From Brachybacterium sacelli (lineage in GTDB: Bacteria; Actinomycetota; Actinomycetes; Actinomycetales; Dermabacteraceae), in NCBI RefSeq assembly GCF_017876545.1, contig NZ_JAGIOD010000001.1, positions 806,001 to 870,000 on the forward strand: a stretch of 64,000 nt of DNA, in the 5' to 3' direction. Position numbers and translations under genes: made by a program. Shown here one piece after another: positions 38,583 to 51,473 of this stretch (the first letter of the stretch is position 1; each line of letters opens with the position of its first letter). A model generated the notes under the pieces. That model saw only the letters and a program-made list of their open reading frames with translations. It was not told where the DNA came from and ran no database searches.

Positions 38583-39674
38583 ATGTCACAGCCCATCCAG
38601 GCTCTCAACATCCTCGGCGCGCCCTCGGCCCCGCCGGCCGCGACCGCCACCGCCGCGGCGCCGACGACACCGGCCGACGACACCGTCCATGAGGTCGTCA
38701 TCGTCGGCTCCGGACCCGCCGGGTACACGGCGGCGATCTACAGCGCCCGCGCCGAAATGAAGCCGATCGTCATCGCGGGCGCGCTCGACGCCGGCGGCGC
38801 TCTGATGACCACGACCGACGTGGAGAACTTCCCGGGCTTCCCCGAGGGCATCCAGGGCCCCGAACTGATGACGCAGATGCAGGAGCAGGCCGAGCGCTTC
38901 GGTGCCGAGGTGATCTACGAGGACGCGGCGGACCTGCAGCTCGAGGGCGACGTCAAGACCGTCACCCTCGACGACGGCACCGTGTACCGGGCGAAGACGC
39001 TGATCCTCTCCACCGGATCCGCGTATCGCGAGCTCGGGGTCGACGGGGAGAGGCAGCTCTCGGGCAAGGGCGTGAGCTGGTGCGCGACCTGCGACGGCTT
39101 CTTCTTCAAGGACCAGGACATCATCGTGGTCGGAGGCGGCGACAGCGCCGTCGAGGAGGCGACGTTCCTGACTCGTTTCGGCAAGTCGGTCACCCTCATC
39201 CACCGCCGCGACGAGCTGCGCGCCTCGAAGATCATGGCCCGCCGCGCCGAGGCCGATCCCAAGCTCCAGTTCGCGTGGAACAGCGAGATCGTGAGCATCA
39301 ACGGGGCCGACAAGGTCGAGTCCGTGACCCTGCGCGACACCGTCACCGGGGAGGAGCGGGTCATGCCGACCACCGCAGTGTTCGAGGCGATCGGGCACCT
39401 CCCGCGCACCGACCTGCTGCGCGGCAAGCTCGAGCTCGACGAGCAGGGCTACATCGTCGTCCAGGGTCGTTCCACCTACACCTCGGTGCCGGGCGTGTTC
39501 GCCGCGGGCGACGTCGTGGATCACACCTACCGCCAGGCGATCACCGCCGCGGGCACCGGATGCCAGGCGGCGCTGGATGCGGAGCGCTGGCTGACCGACC
39601 AGGCGGCCCTCGCCGACGAGCAGGCGAAGGCGGAAGCCCCGATCGTGGCCGCCGCGGAACCGGCGGCCCGCTGA
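38583..39674 (+). CDS. trxB: Thioredoxin reductase
   Basis: A 363-residue flavoprotein. FAD-binding GSGPAGYTAAIYSARA, redox-active C167ATC170 in SWCATCDGFFF, NADPH-binding VGGGDSAVEEATFL, and the C-terminal GVFAAGDVVDHTYRQA are all intact. It transfers electrons from NADPH to thioredoxin. The N-terminus carries about 33 extra Ala/Pro/Thr-rich residues before the first strand. The next gene, where thioredoxin is expected, encodes a thioredoxin fold without cysteines, so its true partner must be elsewhere. Confidence 0.95.
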   Translation: MSQPIQALNILGAPSAPPAATATAAAPTTPADDTVHEVVIVGSGPAGYTAAIYSARAEMKPIVIAGALDAGGALMTTTDVENFPGFPEGIQGPELMTQMQEQAERFGAEVIYEDAADLQLEGDVKTVTLDDGTVYRAKTLILSTGSAYRELGVDGERQLSGKGVSWCATCDGFFFKDQDIIVVGGGDSAVEEATFLTRFGKSVTLIHRRDELRASKIMARRAEADPKLQFAWNSEIVSINGADKVESVTLRDTVTGEERVMPTTAVFEAIGHLPRTDLLRGKLELDEQGYIVVQGRSTYTSVPGVFAAGDVVDHTYRQAITAAGTGCQAALDAERWLTDQAALADEQAKAEAPIVAAAEPAAR

Positions 39675-39703: not shown

Positions 39704-40117
39704 ATGTCCACCGCAGACGGCGACCTCGACCCCACATCAGGGCCCGAGGTCGCCGTCGTGCTGGTGACGGCCGACTGGTCAGCGCCGGCACGACCCGCGC
39801 CCACTGTGCTCCGGGAGCTCGCACGACGGTGGGGGCCGGCGGTTCGCGCCCTCGTGCTCAAGGATGCGGACGATGGCGTCCTCGAGACCCTGGATGTCTC
39901 GAGCATCCCGACGTGGCTTCGCTTCACACGAGTCGAGACCGAGGGGGAGCCCCGGGATCCCTCCGCGCCAGTCGTCCGCGATCTTCGAGGTGCGGACCTC
40001 GCCGGAGAAGACGTCGTCCTTCCCGGTGCCTGGGAACTCACCCATCGCCGATCGGGTGCGGTGCCGAAGCACATCGTGGCGGAGGAGTTCGGCCCGCAGG
40101 ACGCCGCCTCAGGCTGA
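39704..40117 (+). CDS. Thioredoxin-like protein lacking both active-site cysteines
   Basis: A 137-residue protein. Residues about 16-110 read as a thioredoxin fold: VAVVLVTADWSAPARPAPTV aligns with the usual WCGPCR site, with Ser26 and Ala29 in place of the two cysteines, and the cis-Pro segment is SIPTWLRF. The fold and flanking Trp25 and Pro28 are kept, so dithiol chemistry is lost while the scaffold remains. Position right after trxB is that of trxA in many actinobacteria. It may be a structural or binding protein. The ATG at 39704 is 29 bases after trxB, without a strong binding site. Confidence 0.72.
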   Translation: MSTADGDLDPTSGPEVAVVLVTADWSAPARPAPTVLRELARRWGPAVRALVLKDADDGVLETLDVSSIPTWLRFTRVETEGEPRDPSAPVVRDLRGADLAGEDVVLPGAWELTHRRSGAVPKHIVAEEFGPQDAASG

Positions 40118-40252
40118 CAGCCCCCTCGGGCATCGGCACAGCATGGCTCGATCTCGGCCGACCCGGGCGGCCCAGCGATACCTCTGTCAAGTTACATAGG
40201 TCTGCCGCGGCTGACGTGGACGGACGCCCGGTCCACATCGCTCCCCACATGG

Positions 40253-40310
40253 TTGTCCACACGAATCGTCGCGTCTATCCACAGTCTTATCCACATCGGA
40301 TTGTGGATAG
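40253..40310. promoter_or_regulatory. DnaA-box cluster, left of the parS-like array
   Basis: TTGTCCACA (40253-40261, +), CTATCCACA (40275-40283, +), TTATCCACA (40287-40295, +, exact classical box) and TGTGGATAG (40302-40310, minus-strand box, 8 of 9). The two middle boxes start 12 bp apart. Two weaker boxes follow at 40453 and 40475. Confidence 0.8.
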
Positions 40311-40452
40311 CCTCCTGCCGACCCTCTCACGCCCACGTGAGCGGACCGACCCCATGACCAGCATTGACAATCTCGTGCCCATGATGTCACGGAGCGAGAC
40401 TTTCTTTCCCTTGCACAGAGAGTGTGATGTCACTCACTCGGCAGCACTTGAG

Positions 40453-40483
40453 TTTTCCACAGAGTTACTCACACTGTGTACAA
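40453..40483. promoter_or_regulatory. Two further DnaA-box-like sites
   Basis: TTTTCCACA (40453-40461, +, 8 of 9) and TGTGTACAA (40475-40483, minus strand TTGTACACA, 8 of 9), in a locally more AT-rich stretch. Confidence 0.5.
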
Positions 40484-40653
40484 GCGATCTGCTCCGCCTC
40501 ACGGGCCCGGCCTACCGCCACGGCCGACCGTCCCGTCAGGAGGGGCGAGGGGAGAACGGTGGCCGCTCCACGTGACCGGAGGGGTTCCGGTCTCCCGGCT
40601 CTGCGGTCATATGGCGCATGGCGATCCTTTCGAGGCCGGTGCTTGCGAAGCAC

Positions 40654-42543
40654 GGTCCACGTGGAACACCGCGAGGAGGATGGGGCCCGGGGTAGCAGCG
40701 ACACGATCCTTCATGCCCGAGTCGAGGGCAGTCCGCCATTCCGCGTCCACCTACCGTTCATGGACCGCCAGAGCGGCGAGGCCGCAGCTTCGCGTGAAAC
40801 TCTCGCCGAAGGTCCCCTCAGCAGCGCCCTGAAGCAGCCTGGCTAGAGTACGCCGGTAAGCTCGTCTACTCAGCCAGTGTCCGTGACCGCCAGGACGAGC
40901 GTGACCGCGCGACCAGAGTGCGATGTTCCCCGTGAAACATCGCTCGCCCACGCCCCGGAGTTCGTAGGCAAGCCACTCGCCGGCCACGAGCACTGCAGAC
41001 GAGTCCCGGTTCTGCGCGACGCACTTGGCGGCGCTCCACCGAGCGCCACAGCTTCAGCGAGCCTCGTACGGTGTCACTCGCAGTTTCACGTTGAACATGA
41101 GCAGCTCCTTCATACGCCTTCCGCCTCACCGAAGGGCCCCACAAGCAGTAGTGGGCGTCAGGCTAGGCGTCGGATCTCGCGTTTCCCGTGAAACCCCGCG
41201 GCGACCTGAAGTGTGCGGGCATCTGCGCCCGGCGACGCGCAAGAGACACGATCTGCACAGTAGCCCAGCCTCGCTCGTCCACCTCTCCTCCCACTCGAGG
41301 ACCTCAACTCAATGGAGTGCATATGGCGGGACGCTGAGTGGCGGCGAGACAGGAGCGACGCCCCCTGATTCGCGGCATACGACGCGCGATCTCACTCTGT
41401 GGCTCCCGGGGAGCCCGTGAGCGATCCACCCCGTCGGCGGTCGCCACGACAAAAGTTTCCCGTGAAACCCGCTCGGCGTCACCACCTCACGATCGGGCTG
41501 CACTGACGCTGCCGCGTAGACGGAGCAAGCGACGTCGCCCTGTATGTTGAGGCCGTTTCACGTGAAGCGCCAGAGGCACGGAAGGTAGCTGCTAGCTCGC
41601 ACCAGTGAGACTTACGCTTGGTAAGGGGGCGACTGTAGAGACGCACTTGTCACAACGCCACGAAGTACCGAACGGGATCGTGCCGCAGTTTCCCGTGAAA
41701 CTACCGTTGCATCCGCTCAGTAGGCTCAGGAACGCGTCTCTGGTGAAGACGCTTTGAGCCCAGATGCAATCAGCCAGCGACATCGACCCCGCACAGAGTA
41801 GAGAGAGTCTGGCAGTCGCTGGCATAGCAGCAGAGGGCATTCATTCGAATCGCCACCCCGACGCCGGCCTCGCGCCGCCCACGGACAACGCAGGGCGGCC
41901 TCGGACTCGCAGAAGAGCTCCGACACCCCCCGTATTCCACGGGAAACTTGACGGTACACCCCCACAACCAGGAGCGAGCACCTCTCCCATCGCTCTCCGG
42001 TAATGCATGTGAACGTTCCACGGGAAACTACACGCGTCGCAATCCAGCTCCCTCGGCACCCGGTACGGTCACTCCTCACCACCGTCAAGCGTTACATGTG
42101 AAGCGACTTCATCAGCGCGTGCATGAGCAACGCCAATGGCGGTTTCACGAGGAACACCGATCCTGCCGACTCCGGGAAACAGAGTCCAGCCACTCTACGT
42201 AAAGCGACCATCCGGCCAGGTCAGAGCGCTTTCCTGATGGCCGTTCCCCGCCCCAATCCTTGTGGCCGGGTTTCACGTCGAACCGTGAGGCGGTGCCGAT
42301 TCGCACCAGCACAAGCCGCCCAGGTCGCATCCGGCGGAAGGGAAGGTCGCTGCCCACGCCACAGGAGCGGAGCGGGACCTCGCACCGTCGGCCGCGGCAA
42401 CCCACTCCCCGCCGACGCGCGTGGGCCGTCTGGGCTTCCTGCGTCAGACTCTGCTCCGCTCATCGACTCATCTGCGTCCCTGCACGTCTCGGCCGGCCCG
42501 ACGCAGCCAGAGTCGCCAGCACACACGGCGTTCCACGTGGATC
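40654..42543. other. parS: Array of 14 degenerate parS (ParB-binding) sites
   Basis: Each 14-mer is compared with GTTTCACGTGAAAC. Sites (start, matches): 40654 (11), 40787 (12), 40925 (12), 41083 (12), 41181 (13), 41455 (13), 41555 (13), 41688 (13), 41934 (11), 42015 (12), 42091 (11), 42142 (12), 42270 (12), 42530 (11). None is perfect. Nine keep one half-site (GTTTCAC or GTGAAAC) intact. Four central variants CCCGTG occur left of 41701; the reverse-complement form CACGGG occurs only at 41934 and 42015. A weaker site (9 of 14) is at 40565. Spacing is 51 to 274 bp. ParB, encoded just to the right, would nucleate here. Confidence 0.82.
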
Positions 42544-42573
42544 GTCCACAACGCTATGCACAACGGTGGACAA
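42542..42573. promoter_or_regulatory. DnaA-box pair, right of the parS-like array
   Basis: TCGTCCACA (42542-42550, +, 8 of 9) and GGTGGACAA (42565-42573, minus strand TTGTCCACC, 8 of 9), facing each other. The first box overlaps the last parS-like site by two bases. Confidence 0.55.
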
Positions 42574-43039
42574 CTGAGCACAGGTCCCTGAACTACGGAA
42601 AAGCGGCGAGACTGGAGCAGGAGAGGCGGCACCATCGTCAGACAACCTGAATCGCACCGACAGCGATGACAGGACCTCAGAATCGTGCCCGGACACCGAC
42701 CTGACTTTCATGCCTCGCCTGTCATATACGGGAACAGACTCGGCGTGTGAGCCAGCTCACCCTTGTACAGCCGTGAGCGCCGAGTGCGCCCCACGATCCG
42801 CTGCTTCTCTTCCACCAGCCTCGCGCCCGGAGAGAGGGGCCGGCACAGTCCACGACGGGTCACCACGGAGACAGCAGCGGTCCGGGCGAGTTAAAAGGGC
42901 CACCGGAGCGAACTGAGCCGGAGTCCAGGCCGAACGACTCGCCCGCGACACGCACCTTCGTGCAGCGGGAACCACCCGGCGCGGCCGAGAGGACACCCGG
43001 AACACGCCCACGTCCCAACATGCCGCACGGACCGGGGAC

Positions 43040-43075
43040 GAGGAAGGGGCCGGCGAGAACGCCGGCCCCTTCCTC
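43040..43075 (-). terminator. Terminator hairpin after parB
   Basis: A 16-bp perfect stem (43040-43055 with 43060-43075) and AGAA loop, 15 bases beyond the parB stop codon. No U-tract. Confidence 0.75.
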
Positions 43076-43090
43076 TGCGGTGTGCTGAGA

Positions 43091-44986
43091 TCAGCCCTCG
43101 GGCTCGTCCTCGGAACCAGGACCCGGGGTGCCCAGTCCCATGGACTCGATGACGCGGTCGAGGTCCTCGAGGTTCGTGAACTCCAGGGTGATGCGACCCT
43201 TCCGTTTCCCCACGTCGATGCGCACCGGGGTCTCCAAGCGATTGGAGAGGCGGCTGGTCAGGTCGACGACATGCGGGTCGTACGTGCTGCGGCGGGCCGT
43301 GCGGGCGGGGGCCTGCTGCCCGCCACGAGCCACCAGCCGTTCCACGGCTCGGACCGACAGTCCCTCGGACACGATGCGCTGGGCGAGCTCCTCCATCAGC
43401 GTGGGGTCGTCGAGCGAGAGCAGGGCACGGGCATGTCCGGCGCTCAGGGCCCCACTGGCAAGTCGGCGCTGGACGAGAGCGGGCAGGCGCAGCAGACGGA
43501 GCGTATTGGTGATCTGGGGGCGCGAGCGGCCGATCCGATCTCCCAGCTCGTCCTGGGTGCAGCCGAAGTCGTCGAGCAGCTGCTGGTAGGCGTTGGCCTC
43601 TTCCAGCGGGTTCAGCTGCGTGCGGTGAAGGTTCTCCAGCAGGGCGTCGCGCAGGAGATCGTCATCGCTGGTCTCGCGGATGATCGCGGGGATCGAGGTG
43701 AGCCCGGCGCGGCGAGCTGCCCGCCAGCGGCGCTCGCCCATGACGAGCTCGAAGGACTCGCCCTCCTCGGTGACCGGGATGGGGCGGACGACGACGGGCT
43801 GCAGCACGCCGACCTCGCGCAGCGAGAAAGCCAGTTCGTCGAGCTCGTCGTCGTCGAACAGTGTGCGCGGGTTCCGCGGGTTCTCGCGGACCTCATGGAT
43901 CGGGATCTCCGCGAACTCGGCTCCCGGGACGCTGAGGAGACCCTCGCGGCTGCGATCGGTCGCCTCGTCAGGAGCGTTGTCGGTGTCGGGCGAGGCATCC
44001 GACGGGGCAGTGTTCTCCGGCTCGACCGCAGTGGAAGTCGGCTCGGTCTCCCACTCGTGGTCGGTCTTTAGCTCGGGGTCCGTCTCCGGCACCGGCTCCG
44101 CATCCGTCTCTTCTCCGCCAGCGGCATCTGCCGCCGCGGCAGACCTCACCACGGGCTCGGCGGCATCCGCGGGCGCCGACGTCGCCTGCTCGGCATCCAC
44201 CGGCGTGCGCTCCACGGCCTCGACCTCGACGGTCGGACTCTCCTCGGCGGTCGCCACGGGGACCTCCACCGAGGGCGCGCTCGCGGCGGCCGGCGTGGAC
44301 GTGATCTCCTCCGGCTCCGCGGGAGCCGCACCGGTGGTCGAGGTGCTCTTCGCCGGAGCCGACGACGCGTTCGACGACTTCCTCCTCTGCGTCGTGGACG
44401 CGCCGCTCCCGGTCTTCGTCGCCGTCGAGGTGGTGGCCTTCGCTCCCGCGGTCTTAGCTCCCGCGGTCTTAGCTCCCGAGGTCGTGCGCCCGGAGGTCGC
44501 CCCGCTCTTCGAGGCCGAGGTCCGCTGTGCAGGCGCGGACTTCTTCGCCGAGGACGACGACGTCGAAGCCTTCTTCGCGCCACCGGAGCGCTTCGTCGAG
44601 GAGGAGCTGGTGGTCGAGCGCTTCGCGGGGGACCGGTTCGACGTCGGTGCGGGCTTCTGGTCCGACTCCTCGACCTCGGCTCCCGCCTCGTCGGACTCCG
44701 CGCCGGCACGCGCGGACGCGGCCCGTCCCCGACGCTGCGCCGCCGCACGCGCCATGTCACCGGCGAGGTCAGGTCGGCTCCCGCGCTCGCGCTGGGGCCA
44801 GTCCTCCTCCGAGGAGGCCTTCTCCCCGGAGAAGAACATGTCGACCGGGCGATTGCTGGGAGCGGACTCCTCCTCGGCGGACTCCGGACGCACCCGAGTG
44901 CGCAGCTCCTGCTCGGGAGCGGGGCTCGACCCCGCGCCCGGGATCAGGGCACCGAGTCCTCGTCCGAGTCCTCGCTTCTGCGTCAT
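43091..44986 (-). CDS. parB: Chromosome-partitioning protein ParB with a very long internal low-complexity insert
   Basis: A 631-residue protein. Residues 1-18 are the conserved ParA-contacting motif MTQKRGLGRGLGALIPGA. The ParB core starts at residue 359 (AEIPIHEVRENPRNPRTLF) with the CTP-binding GERRWRA and ENLHRTQLNPLEEA boxes, a helix-turn-helix at about 475-503 (QDELGDRIGRSRPQITNTL) that reads parS, and the C-terminal dimer domain. Residues 19-358, about 340 residues, are inserted: first Ser/Thr/Lys/Ala-rich with AKTAG repeats, histone-H1-like, then acidic. ParB is usually 280-380 residues in total. As a CTP-dependent clamp it loads at parS and is moved by ParA. Second gene after parA, followed by a terminator and the parS-like array. 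Confidence 0.95.
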   Translation of the reverse strand: MTQKRGLGRGLGALIPGAGSSPAPEQELRTRVRPESAEEESAPSNRPVDMFFSGEKASSEEDWPQRERGSRPDLAGDMARAAAQRRGRAASARAGAESDEAGAEVEESDQKPAPTSNRSPAKRSTTSSSSTKRSGGAKKASTSSSSAKKSAPAQRTSASKSGATSGRTTSGAKTAGAKTAGAKATTSTATKTGSGASTTQRRKSSNASSAPAKSTSTTGAAPAEPEEITSTPAAASAPSVEVPVATAEESPTVEVEAVERTPVDAEQATSAPADAAEPVVRSAAAADAAGGEETDAEPVPETDPELKTDHEWETEPTSTAVEPENTAPSDASPDTDNAPDEATDRSREGLLSVPGAEFAEIPIHEVRENPRNPRTLFDDDELDELAFSLREVGVLQPVVVRPIPVTEEGESFELVMGERRWRAARRAGLTSIPAIIRETSDDDLLRDALLENLHRTQLNPLEEANAYQQLLDDFGCTQDELGDRIGRSRPQITNTLRLLRLPALVQRRLASGALSAGHARALLSLDDPTLMEELAQRIVSEGLSVRAVERLVARGGQQAPARTARRSTYDPHVVDLTSRLSNRLETPVRIDVGKRKGRITLEFTNLEDLDRVIESMGLGTPGPGSEDEPEG

Positions 44987-45074: not shown

Positions 45075-45998
45075 TCAAGGGGCGGGGCGGATGGTGAGCT
45101 CGTGGGCGGCGGCCCGGTAGGCCAGCGCGCCGCTCGAACCGGGATCGTAGGTCAGCACCGTCTGGCCGTAGCTCGGTGCCTCGGAGATCCTCACGGAGCG
45201 CGGGATCGACGTCTCGAGGGTCTGGTCCGGGAAGTGGTCCCGGACGTCCTGCGCGACCTGTGCGGCGAGCCGGGTTCTGGCGTCGTACATGGTCAGCATG
45301 ATCGAAGAGACCACCAGCTCGGGGTTCAGATGCTGGCGGATCAGATCGATGTTGTTCAGCAGCAGGCTCAGGCCTTCCAGCGCGTAGTACTCGGCCTGGA
45401 TGGGGATCAACACCTCGCGCGCCGCGACCAGTGCGTTCACGGTCAGCAGGCCCAGCGAGGGCGGGCAGTCGATCAGCACGTAATCCAGGCGCGGCAGCCC
45501 CTGTTCGTCGCGTGCCTCGAGGTAGTCGCGGATCGCATTGCGCAGCCGATTCTCACGGGCCACCAGCGAGACCAGCTCGATCTCGGCACCGGAGAGATTG
45601 ATCGTGGCGGGCGCGCAGGAGAGCCGCTCGAGATCCGGGACGTCCTGGACCACGTCGATCAGGGGCGCGGACTCCACCAGCACCTCGTAGATGCTGGGGA
45701 CCTCGGCGTGATGCTCGATGTTCAGCGCGGTCGAGGTGTTGCCCTGCGGGTCCGCGTCGATCACCAGCACGTTCATTCCGCCCATGGACAACGCGGCCGC
45801 CAGGTTCACGGCGGTGGACGTCTTGCCGACGCCGCCCTTCTGGTTCGCCACCGTGATCACCCGGGTCGTCTCGGGAGGGCGGAAATCGGCCTTCTCGAGC
45901 TGCTTGCGTCGCGCGTGGTCCCGGGTGAGCTCACGCATCAGCGGAGTGTCTTCCATCGCACTGCCCGCCCGGGAGGAATCTTCGCGCTGATCAGCCAC
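45075..45998 (-). CDS. parA: Chromosome-partitioning ATPase ParA (Soj)
   Basis: A 307-residue Walker ATPase. Deviant Walker A KGGVGKTS is within VITVANQKGGVGKTSTAVNL. NVLVIDADPQGNTSTAL (A') and the Walker B segment YVLIDCPPSLGLLTVNAL are intact. A roughly 35-residue charged N-terminus precedes the fold. It binds DNA non-specifically as an ATP dimer and pulls ParB-parS complexes. The GTG at 45998 overlaps the rsmG end by eight bases and has AAGGGAG upstream; the internal ATG at 45956 has no binding site. Spacing to parB is 88 bases. Confidence 0.94.
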   Translation of the reverse strand: MADQREDSSRAGSAMEDTPLMRELTRDHARRKQLEKADFRPPETTRVITVANQKGGVGKTSTAVNLAAALSMGGMNVLVIDADPQGNTSTALNIEHHAEVPSIYEVLVESAPLIDVVQDVPDLERLSCAPATINLSGAEIELVSLVARENRLRNAIRDYLEARDEQGLPRLDYVLIDCPPSLGLLTVNALVAAREVLIPIQAEYYALEGLSLLLNNIDLIRQHLNPELVVSSIMLTMYDARTRLAAQVAQDVRDHFPDQTLETSIPRSVRISEAPSYGQTVLTYDPGSSGALAYRAAAHELTIRPAP

Positions 45999-46656
45999 GT
46001 GTCTCTCCCTTCCTGGTCGCCTGTGCTCGGCGACGCACTTGGACCACTGTAGTGGGAACCTCGACCTCGCCGATCCCGTACTGCTCGATGCGAGGATCAC
46101 GGCCGCCGAGCTTCCCCAGCACCGTGCCCGCCTTGTCCACTTCGTCCGCCGCGGACCCGCCCTTCAGAGCCAGCAGCTGACCGTCCTCGGCGACCAGCGG
46201 CAGAGTCCACCGCGCCAGCTTGTCCAGCGCCGCCACCGCCCGGGCGGTCACCACGTCGAAGGTACGCACCCCGTGCAGCTCCTCGGCGCGGGAGCGCACC
46301 ACCTCCAGGCCCAGACCGAGCTCGGCGTCGACCTCCTCGAGCCACGTGGTCCGACGCTGCATCGTCTCGATGAGAGTGACCTCGAGGTCCGGTCGGGCGA
46401 TCGCGAGGACGACACCGGGCAGGCCGGCACCGGAGCCGACGTCGGCGAGCGTGGTCGCGGCCGGATCGACCGCCTCGACCATCAGCGCGCAGTTGAGGAT
46501 GTGCCGCTCCCACAGCCGCTCCACCTCGCGCGGGCCGATCAAACCGCGCTCGGGGCCCTGCTCGGCGAGCAGGGTGGTGAAGCGCTCCGCCAGCTCGAGA
46601 CGGTCAGCGAACAGACGCTCGGCCGACGGGCGCAGGGAGTCGGGCAGGGGCAGCAC
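45991..46656 (-). CDS. rsmG: 16S rRNA (guanine527-N7)-methyltransferase
   Basis: A 221-residue SAM-dependent methyltransferase (GidB): GPREVERLWERHILNCALM, SAM-binding LADVGSGAGLPGVVLAI, and VTLIETMQRRTTWLEEV. It methylates G527 in the 530 loop of 16S rRNA. The GTG start lies eight bases after the jag stop, and the end overlaps parA, as in the usual jag-rsmG-parA order. Confidence 0.94.
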   Translation of the reverse strand: MLPLPDSLRPSAERLFADRLELAERFTTLLAEQGPERGLIGPREVERLWERHILNCALMVEAVDPAATTLADVGSGAGLPGVVLAIARPDLEVTLIETMQRRTTWLEEVDAELGLGLEVVRSRAEELHGVRTFDVVTARAVAALDKLARWTLPLVAEDGQLLALKGGSAADEVDKAGTVLGKLGGRDPRIEQYGIGEVEVPTTVVQVRRRAQATRKGETRG

Positions 46657-49443: not shown

Positions 49444-49808
49444 CGGTTCTCCTCGATCATGGGCACGGGCGTACCCCTCGCGGTGGTCTGTGGTCTGCTG
49501 CACGAACGGACTGTCCGGGCGCACCCGCGGGGCGGGGCGGCTGCCGGGGTCCGGATCTGGACGGCGCGCAGCGCTGACTGCACGATCTTAGAAGTGCGGT
49601 CGCGAGGGGTCAACGGGAAGAGGCCCGCCAGGGCTGGTTGTGGCCAGATTCTCACGAATGCTCGCCGCTCCCCGGCGTTTCGCCTCCGCCCCGGTGGACG
49701 AGGAGGGGGACCTCTCATGGGTGATTGTCCACAGCGTGGATCCACAATACAGCGGCTACTGTGGAAAACTACCTGGACCGCCGAACCATGCCTGTACGGA
49801 GAGACCTG
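49444..49808. other. rpmH-dnaA divergent intergenic region
   Basis: This 365-bp stretch carries a perfect DnaA box TTGTCCACA (49725-49733, +), a 7-of-9 site at 49738-49746, and TGTGGAAAA (49760-49768, minus-strand box, 8 of 9), all within 85 bases of the dnaA start. They are suited to autoregulation by DnaA or to being part of the origin. The dnaA and rpmH promoters must lie here; none is unambiguous. No gene seen. Confidence 0.75.
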
Positions 49809-51473
49809 ATGCCTGACGCGAACGTCGCTGCGATCTGGGAGCGCACCCTGGCCACCCTGCGCCGTGACGACACCGTGTCCCAGCGGGTGATCGCCCTGCT
49901 GACCCTGTCCCGTCTGATGGCGGTCGTCGCGGACACCGCCCTGCTCGCAGCCCCCTCGACCTCGGCGAAGGAGCTGTTCGAGCACCGGGTCGCGGGCTCG
50001 TTGAAGGCCGCGCTCAGCGAGGCCGTCGGACGGGAGATGCGCTTCGCGGTGACGGTCGACGAGTCGCTCCTGCTGGAGGAGGACACCGACGAACCCGCTG
50101 TGACCTCCACGTCGGGGACCGACAGTGCACATTCTGTGGACAACGATGTGGACAGTGGCGTGCGTGACGTCCACACCGCCCCCTTCCGCCGCGACGAGGG
50201 CTCGGTCCTGCCCCCGAGCGGGCAGTCCGGCCACGCCGCCCTGCCGGATTCCCCCTCCGCCTCCGCGGCCTCCGCGGAGCGCCTCTCCAGCGGCACCGCT
50301 GCCGAGGATCCCGGTGCCTTCGCGGGCTTCTCGGCACTGACCGGCTCCTCCGCTCCGTCGCCCGGTCCGGCCCCGCAGCGTCCGTCCGCCACTCCCGGGC
50401 CCACCCTCGGCGAGGACTCCCGCCTGAACGCCAAGTACACCTTCGACACCTTCGTGATCGGGTCCTCGAACCGCTTCGCGCAGGCCGCGGCCTCGGCCGT
50501 CTCGGAGACGCCGGCCAAGGCGTACAACCCGCTGTTCATCTACGGCGGATCCGGTCTGGGCAAGACGCATCTGCTGCACGCCGTCGGCCACTACGCCCAG
50601 AGTCTCTACCCGGACGTGGTGGTGCGGTACGTGAACTCGGAGGAGTTCACCAACGACTTCATCAACTCCGTGCAGTCCGGCCAGTTCGGCAAGGCCCAGG
50701 AGTTCCAGCGCCGCTACCGCGACATCGACATCCTGCTCATCGACGACATCCAGTTCCTGCAGCGCGCGCCGGAGACGATGGAGGCCTTCTTCCACACGTT
50801 CAACACGCTGTACAACACCGACAAGCAGATCGTGATCACCTCGGACCTGCCGCCCAAGGAGCTCGGTGGCTTCGAGGACCGCATGCGCTCCCGCTTCGAG
50901 ATGGGCCTGATGACGGACGTGCAGCCGCCGGACCTCGAGACCCGCATCGCGATCCTGCGCAAGAAGGTCGCCCAGGAGAACACCGGCGAGGTCCCGCACG
51001 ACGTGCTGGAGTACATCGCTTCCCACATCGCCACCAACATCCGCGAGCTCGAGGGCGCGCTGATCCGCGTGCAGGCGCTGCACTCGCTGTCCCGCCAGCC
51101 GATGGACGTCACCCTCGCCGAGAGCGTGCTGAAGGATCTGCTCTCCCACGACGACGGCGCCCAGATCACCGCGTCGACGATCATCGCCCAGACGGCGACC
51201 TACTTCGGGATCTCCGTCGAGGAGATCGTGGGGACCGGGCGCTCACGGCGGCTGGTCTCGGCCCGGCAGATCGGCATGTACCTGTGCCGCGAGCTCACGG
51301 ACATGCCGCTGATCCGCATCGGCGAGGAGTTCGGCGGCCGTGACCACACCACGGTGATGCACGCCAACAAGAAGATCAGCGAGCTCATGAAGGAGCGCCG
51401 GGCGATCTTCAACCAGGTCACGGAGCTCACCGCCCGCATCAAGAGCTCCAACTCCTCGTCCGCCCGCCAGTGA
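49809..51473 (+). CDS. dnaA: Chromosomal replication initiator DnaA
   Basis: A 554-residue AAA+ initiator. Domain I is at residues 1-85 ([16 protein letters not shown]). Domain II is an unusually Ser/Pro/Ala-rich linker to about residue 205. Domain III holds Walker [10 protein letters not shown], Walker [11 protein letters not shown] and sensor segments. Domain IV is a box-binding helix-turn-helix whose signature [14 protein letters not shown] is intact. It opens oriC and loads the helicase. The ATG at 49809 follows GGAGAG; an upstream frame extension lacks support. Two DnaA boxes lie inside the linker-coding part. Confidence 0.97.
50135..50155 (-). promoter_or_regulatory. DnaA-box pair inside the dnaA linker-coding sequence
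   Basis: TGTGGACAA (50135-50143, perfect box on the minus strand) and TGTGGACAG (50147-50155, 8 of 9), starting 12 bp apart, in the part encoding residues about 109-116 (SVDNDVDS). Confidence 0.65.

Follow-up and report, generated by a model that had tools for sequence, protein, structure and literature searches.

The gene-free DNA beside parB in Brachybacterium sacelli contains a dense array of 14 near-consensus parS sites, none of them perfect, which on the evidence of the sequence is probably the centromere of the chromosome. The array was found in a 64-kb stretch, referred to below as the window, of a genome of 4.87 Mb in 2 contigs. In our view it is rather likely that this compact, non-coding stretch holds the only parS locus evident on the chromosome and that selection acts on each of its sites by a threshold of strength. 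The gene order in the window is trxB, a trxA-like gene, the gene-free stretch, parB and parA on the opposite strand and, farther on, dnaA:

38583..39674, + strand: trxB, thioredoxin reductase, the left neighbour (NCBIfam TIGR01292, 395 bits, above cut-off)
39704..40117, + strand: thioredoxin-like ORF (trxA-like), reading towards the array
40118..43090, no strand: gene-free stretch flanked by the trxA-like gene and parB, which converge
40253..40483, no strand: DnaA-box cluster on the trxA side, with starts at 40253, 40275, 40287, 40302, 40453 and 40475 (two exact, four with one mismatch)
40654..42543, no strand: array of 14 near-consensus parS sites (motif scan of the window and the genome, conservation in the genus)
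parS site starts: 40654, 40787, 40925, 41083, 41181, 41455, 41555, 41688, 41934, 42015, 42091, 42142, 42270 and 42530
42542..42573, no strand: two DnaA-box-like sites at the parB-side edge of the array, starting at 42542 and 42565, with one mismatch each
43091..44986, - strand: parB (Pfam PF02195, PF17762 and PF23552 over their cut-offs; NCBIfam TIGR00180)
45075..46100, - strand: parA (Pfam AAA_31, 183.8 bits, and CbiA)
49725..51473, + strand: ORF presumed from its sequence to be dnaA, with relatives located by tblastn
51513 and 51525: exact DnaA boxes behind dnaA

The trxA-like ORF has no match in Pfam or NCBIfam; its name rests on a WADWCAPC-type motif, which we presume to mark a thioredoxin. 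A tblastn relative of this ORF adjoins the array in 32 of 34 genomes of the genus, the window included, and in G017 the relative carries WADWCAPC. Wholly within the gene-free stretch there are 24 ORFs of at least 60 aa, of which six were tested and have no Pfam match, and a search of the stretch against Rfam at E 0.1 gave zero matches. Together with the drift of the spacers described below, this bears out the original prediction that the stretch holds no genes.

Scanning the window with GTTTCACGTGAAAC at up to three mismatches yielded 14 matches, every one within the array (four with one, six with two and four with three mismatches), whereas 100 dinucleotide shuffles of the window gave a mean of 0.57 and a maximum of 3. 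The predicted cluster of 14 imperfect sites therefore stands. A genome-wide scan, which had been proposed as a check, found 41 places within three mismatches of GTTTCACGTGAAAC, and the array holds all four of the one-mismatch places and six of the eight two-mismatch places. Since the reversed pattern, used as a control on the whole genome, gives 21 places, most of the 27 places outside the array look like chance matches. The scan detected neither a perfect GTTTCACGTGAAAC in the entire 4.87 Mb nor a second parS cluster elsewhere in the genome.

For the comparison within the genus we used parB stretches from the genomes with a chromosomal parB match (34 of 38), and the array adjoins parB in all 34. 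These stretches contain 461 sites within three mismatches of GTTTCACGTGAAAC, with only 3 matches in the remainder of the stretches, and each genome possesses 10 to 17 sites, G017 apart. In G017, six sites fall within the stretch first taken and 14 lie within two mismatches of the Y4 consensus (defined below) in a longer sequence, where the array forms two blocks parted by an insertion carrying transposase-like genes. The transposase-like gene pair of this genome, which we take to be IS21-like, is present in two inverted copies (L154:1169-6969), one between parB and the array and one splitting the array; despite the insertions the genome retains 14 sites and the outer DnaA boxes. Distant ParB-like genes with ~26-32% identity were observed in six genomes (G004, G012, G013, G014, G030 and G036), in place of the chromosomal parB match in G030 and as an extra gene in the other five.

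A perfect GTTTCACGTGAAAC is missing in 36 of the 38 genus genomes, and the remaining two carry four and one, all inside the array. At least one perfect site is present in 243 of 296 genomes of an even sample of the class, which includes two Brachybacterium, and in 24 of the 25 genomes of that sample from the same order outside the family.

The expectation that relatives would conserve the sites while the spacers drift was confirmed. Spacer identity has fallen to roughly the random level in 23 of the 24 species pairs compared (43-50% in forced global alignments), while parB DNA is 85-92% identical; the exception is the closest pair, G013/G034, with a spacer identity of 78.5%. Between 1 and 13 sites in each of the 23 more distant pairs nevertheless align with a site of the partner genome. 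G034 and G013 share 13 aligned sites, at which changes affected 3 of 21 mismatched positions and 0 of 161 consensus positions, compared with 21.5% of spacer columns, in counts that take only places that are sites in both genomes and so favour consensus positions. Conservation of mismatched positions in this pair was 21/22 in a local alignment and 18/21 in a global alignment in the other direction, neither of which is relied on alone.

The mean gap between sites is 146 bp. Among the 33 genomes other than G017, gaps shorter than 60 bp number 26 of 418, compared with 119 under random placement, and the coefficient of variation is 0.50 compared with 0.86. The spacing is thus irregular, as originally described, but it is not random: the sites keep apart, as if each loading event needed free DNA. 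No helical phasing at 10-11 bp was found among the site gaps. The worse half of the site faces parB in a fraction of 0.62 of sites at the parB end of the array, falling to 0.43 at the trxA end.

The best-bound heptamers of Pseudomonas aeruginosa ParB are given in passages of one report as GTTCCAC and GTTTCAC (PMC10419367), and because of this published preference we adopted GTTYCACGTGRAAC, a consensus with T or C at position 4 (Y4). Compared with GTTYCACGTGRAAC, the sites of the window distribute as 0/11/2/1 at 0/1/2/3 mismatches. The suggestion of a graded platform was not supported by this analysis, as most sites have exactly one mismatch and the mean number of mismatches in successive parts of the array is 1.6, 1.5, 1.4, 1.4 and 1.9. 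The 475 sites of the genus distribute as 39/339/79/18, about 5 of the 18 three-mismatch sites being expected by chance. Nine other genomes of the family, scanned up to 5.5 kb downstream of parB, have 77/33/5 sites at 0/1/2 mismatches, of which 67/33/5 belong to eight sister-genus genomes and 10/0/0 to G044. The 20 loci from other families have 85/4/3, a biased set in which ten were fetched for listed perfect sites and ten were chosen among loci with sites. The median zero-mismatch fraction per genome is 0 in the genus vs 0.6 in the nine others (Mann-Whitney 5e-6, ignoring phylogeny).

Enrichment over spacer base composition amounts to 76,000-, 15,400-, 183- and 3.5-fold at 0, 1, 2 and 3 mismatches, that is, a 5-fold step from zero to one mismatch (2.5-8.4 by bootstrap over genomes) and an 84-fold step from one to two, with sites from related species entering the counts as if they were independent. 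Within each half-site, changes are tolerated chiefly at positions 2, 4 and 6, and positions 1, 3, 5 and 7 show little variation (G stands at position 1 in 247 of 249 sites). The greatest variability is at position 6, which accounts for 204 of the 339 single mismatches; the most frequent single variant (149/339) is A6C, in which one half has C at this position, and A6C in both halves was found once. In the two-mismatch sites, both mismatches occur in one half in 44 cases and one per half in 35, thus the total strength of a site, not one intact half, seems to count.

The ParB of the window consists of an N-terminal GLGRGLGAL motif, which we assume to be ParA-activating, a long low-complexity linker, ParB_N with GERRWRA, HTH_ParB and ParB_C. 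Over the best segment it shares 78-93% identity with records from Brachybacterium and Helcobacillus, both of which are placed in Dermabacteraceae, Micrococcales. The residues at positions 173/179/184/201 are R, T, R and G, with numbers mapped by hand from an alignment to Caulobacter ParB (6t1f). R173 and G201, described in parts of one study as conserved in all ParBs (PMC7383237), are kept in all 32 aligned genus genomes (G018 and G027 were left out), and all four residues in 31 of the 32, the other having K at the third. With canonical ParB domains, an adjacent ParA-type ATPase, conserved above-chance parS sites near parAB and dnaA, and R173 with G201, the locus has the features of a chromosomal ParABS system. 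It is separated from Noc, which is marked by Q173, K179 or K184, R201 and an A at position 1 of its sites, by the R, T, R, G residues, by the G at position 1 of the sites and by a TIGR04285 score of 202.6 bits vs a cut-off of 315. The linker that joins the N-terminal motif to the CTPase domain has 339 residues in the window and 233-460 across the 34 genus genomes; its length, measurable in few loci outside the genus, was rejected as a cause of the near-miss sites, having no clear relation to them (it is 391 residues in G042, yet that genome has 7 perfect sites).

According to the explanation that we favour, ParB dimers would recognise the 14 sites and load as CTP clamps, and the loaded clamps would slide into the spacers, building the complex that ParA moves. 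Selection would hold each site only above a strength threshold located about one mismatch from GTTYCACGTGRAAC, so that zero-mismatch and the best one-mismatch sites would be nearly equivalent and two-mismatch sites strongly selected against. Drift on this plateau would leave most sites one letter short, because far more sequences lie one step off the consensus and because the genome is GC-rich. The large enrichment step between one and two mismatches, together with the positional drift, fits sites drifting above a threshold. We also counted in favour of the threshold that G201, which lacks a side chain, is described as unable to contact thymine -6 specifically (PMC7383237, in part), and in these sites position 6 varies the most. 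In line with the one-to-two step, two-mismatch sites of P. aeruginosa are reported, in the text available from PMC5098823, to be unbound in vivo and to give no support for segregation. Excerpts of a further P. aeruginosa study place the single mismatch of parS1 and parS4 outside the 14-mer and describe an intact CACGTG core as important (PMC4368675). A6C breaks this core, which speaks against A6C sites being of full strength; it made us slightly less confident in the plateau and slightly more receptive to selection for weakness. For comparison, the accessible part of PMC3778016 describes Myxococcus xanthus ParB assayed on a parS with two substitutions.

Several other causes of the near-miss sites were tried and rejected. 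Strong avoidance of perfect sites (5 vs 115 expected by half-site independence) was dropped, since under the Y4 consensus zero-mismatch sites are as enriched as A6C. Palindrome avoidance fails as the main cause, as 18 GTTCCACGTGGAAC palindromes are present; symmetric double variants number 19 vs 30 expected (shuffle P 0.0012), and a weak effect of this kind is possible. CACGTG is not avoided in the genus stretches (349 found vs 324 expected). Redundancy as the sole cause is ruled out by 12 genomes of a large-genome genus, probably Streptomyces, which have 18-43 perfect sites among 23-49 within one mismatch; these were chosen from the 27 genomes of that genus in the sample for having at least 18 perfect sites.

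The alternatives to a threshold differ in what they take the present sites to be. Intermediate strength itself could be selected if 14 strong sites ~140 bp apart retained ParB too long or blocked the sliding clamps; such selection for weakness is possible, and on balance we find it doubtful. It is favoured by the finding that in a core of 22 genomes A6C is 3.7-fold above zero-mismatch enrichment (Poisson 5.6e-7 if sites are independent), an excess which a pure plateau does not predict and which would suggest weak selection against full strength, in agreement with the disruption of the CACGTG core by A6C. The 22/12 split was drawn after seeing the counts and roughly tracks ParB identity, and is no independent test; in the other 12 genomes A6C is at 0.21-fold, genus-wide zero-mismatch and A6C sites are enriched alike after correction for base composition (ratio 1.02), which agrees with drift on a plateau, and the remaining one-mismatch variants in the core reach only 0.12-1.36 times zero-mismatch enrichment. 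The half-site odds ratio of 0.048 fits weakness, though it is also expected if doubly faulty sites are purged, and the avoidance of short gaps agrees with it too, but in sister genera zero-mismatch sites lie about as close together. We hold it quite improbable that ParB specificity has shifted and that the present sites are its true optimum, e.g. an asymmetric GTTTCCC/GTTYCAC. A6C is indeed the commonest single variant, and the Noc site NBS has a C at position 6 (PMC7383237, in part); however, Noc needs R at 201, where these ParBs have G, a doubled A6C was seen only once, and the ParB recognition region is nearly identical to that of sister genera with perfect sites, which makes changed specificity unlikely. 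It is scarcely credible that the array is a relic in decay, with ParB acting at sites elsewhere. The source genome does lack a perfect site, as a relic would suggest, but it has no other cluster, the array is present in 34/34 genomes, and in the four closest pairs the consensus positions are 97-100% identical at aligned sites, counted only where there is a site in both.

A further reading is not opposed to the threshold explanation and could be the cause behind it: loss of SMC-ScpAB would have relaxed the sites, as parS would then serve ParA transport only, with no condensin loading. We regard this as a tentative possibility. Profile matches for ScpA and SMC suggest that SMC-ScpAB is missing from most of the family. 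Among the 47 family genomes (G000-G046), ScpA (PF02616) was found only in G044, which is also the only one with canonical SMC (TIGR02168) above the cut-off (900 bits; the best other has 44 bits). In the source genome there was no ScpA match, and the best SMC score was 31 bits vs a cut-off of 567. The same searches in 14 named control genomes detected ScpA in 9 and SMC in 14 (10 over the cut-off), Corynebacterium glutamicum having both, and ScpA was detected in 284 of the 296 class genomes. ParB loads SMC at parS in C. glutamicum, as stated in sections of PMC7083940. The zero-mismatch share falls from 10/10 in SMC-bearing G044, whose ParB is only 59% identical to that of the window, to 67/105 (64%) in the SMC-less sister genomes and 39/475 in Brachybacterium, which suggests that condensin loading keeps parS strong. 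SMC loss cannot be a sufficient cause, since zero-mismatch sites still predominate in the SMC-less sisters, and at most one evolutionary event is involved. The association in the class sample is slight: no perfect site is found in 5 of 12 ScpA-less genomes vs 48 of 284 others (Fisher 0.044), the 12 including two Brachybacterium and several incomplete genomes. Three ScpA-less genomes nevertheless have perfect sites, namely G245 with 20 (100% complete, 320 contigs), G308 with 3 and G315 with 2 (both 99% complete). A 1145-residue protein of G019 with AAA_29 and SbcC_Walker_B (L159:823-4260) is presumably a MukB/JetC-like ATPase, which would also count against this reading. Another candidate SMC-like protein, from L162, was rejected, as it has no Pfam or NCBIfam match.

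DnaA boxes, counted within one mismatch of TTRTCCACA in the 32 genomes in which both borders were found, occur at a density of 10.2/kb between the array and trxA (172 in 16.9 kb), 3.5/kb between parB and the array (54 in 15.35 kb) and 0.28/kb inside the array (17). The parB-side boxes are few: at least one is present in 22 of 29 genomes and an exact one in 6. At least three boxes are found on the trxA side in 28/29 genomes and behind dnaA in 25/29, with means of 5.4 and, in 420 bp behind dnaA, 3.5; the lowest local GC is alike for the two regions. Among the nine loci of the other family genomes, seven (L135 and L137-L142) have at least two boxes beyond the far end of the array, L143 (G044) has a single box and the L136 sequence stops at the array; L137, L138 and L141 have boxes on both sides. 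With DnaA boxes beside the array, origin and centromere are possibly one element. It can be speculated, and we think it rather unlikely, that SMC-ScpAB was lost in most Dermabacteraceae, that the parS locus came to serve purely as a centromere carried by ParA, linked to a DnaA-box cluster that is perhaps the origin, and that selection actively keeps the sites of the core Brachybacterium one step short of full strength, with clamps loading often and leaving fast. If so, the centromere would be tuned by site number and weakness, not by a few strong sites.

The parS motif is usually regarded as highly conserved, and a genus with at least a dozen sites that are seldom of full strength opens the question of what purpose the final base pair of parS serves. 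The seeming lack of SMC-ScpAB makes it a natural test of whether condensin loading keeps parS perfect elsewhere. In the partly covered literature on Brachybacterium and parS we found only one mention of the genus, in a review, and Brachybacterium and Dermabacter are absent from the best-matching condensin literature, also covered in part.

The locus shares with the chromosomal ParABS (ParB/Spo0J with parS) the position of the sites next to parA and parB and not far from dnaA, the 14-bp palindromic motif, the canonical ParB domains and GERRxRA, and differs in that ~14 sites, all imperfect, are packed into 1.9 kb of non-coding DNA. A bipartite bacterial oriC has DnaA boxes flanking a spacer. Here, too, boxes lie on both sides of a spacer, but that spacer consists of the parS array, only a few boxes are on the parB side, and further boxes are found behind dnaA. 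Noc binding sites resemble many Brachybacterium sites in the C at position 6 of one half; however, Brachybacterium ParB is without the Noc specificity residues and position 1 of its sites stays G. The GTTCCAC/GTTTCAC preference that underlies the Y4 consensus is shared with the half-parS of P. aeruginosa (PMC10419367, in part), where half-sites are genome-wide, whereas the sites here have two halves and are clustered. A further parallel is M. xanthus, for which passages of PMC3899335 report the consensus TGTTCCACGTGGAACG, the C4 form, and 22 putative parS sites in a 3-kb cluster ~4 kb upstream of parA, so a dense array is less unusual than the original prediction held. Both are dense parS clusters near parAB, with 14 sites in 1.9 kb here and similar numbers in relatives; M. 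xanthus belongs to another phylum and its cluster is on the other side of parAB. Dense parS arrays are already known from Myxococcus, and the Brachybacterium array is a new form of them, built of near-miss sites.
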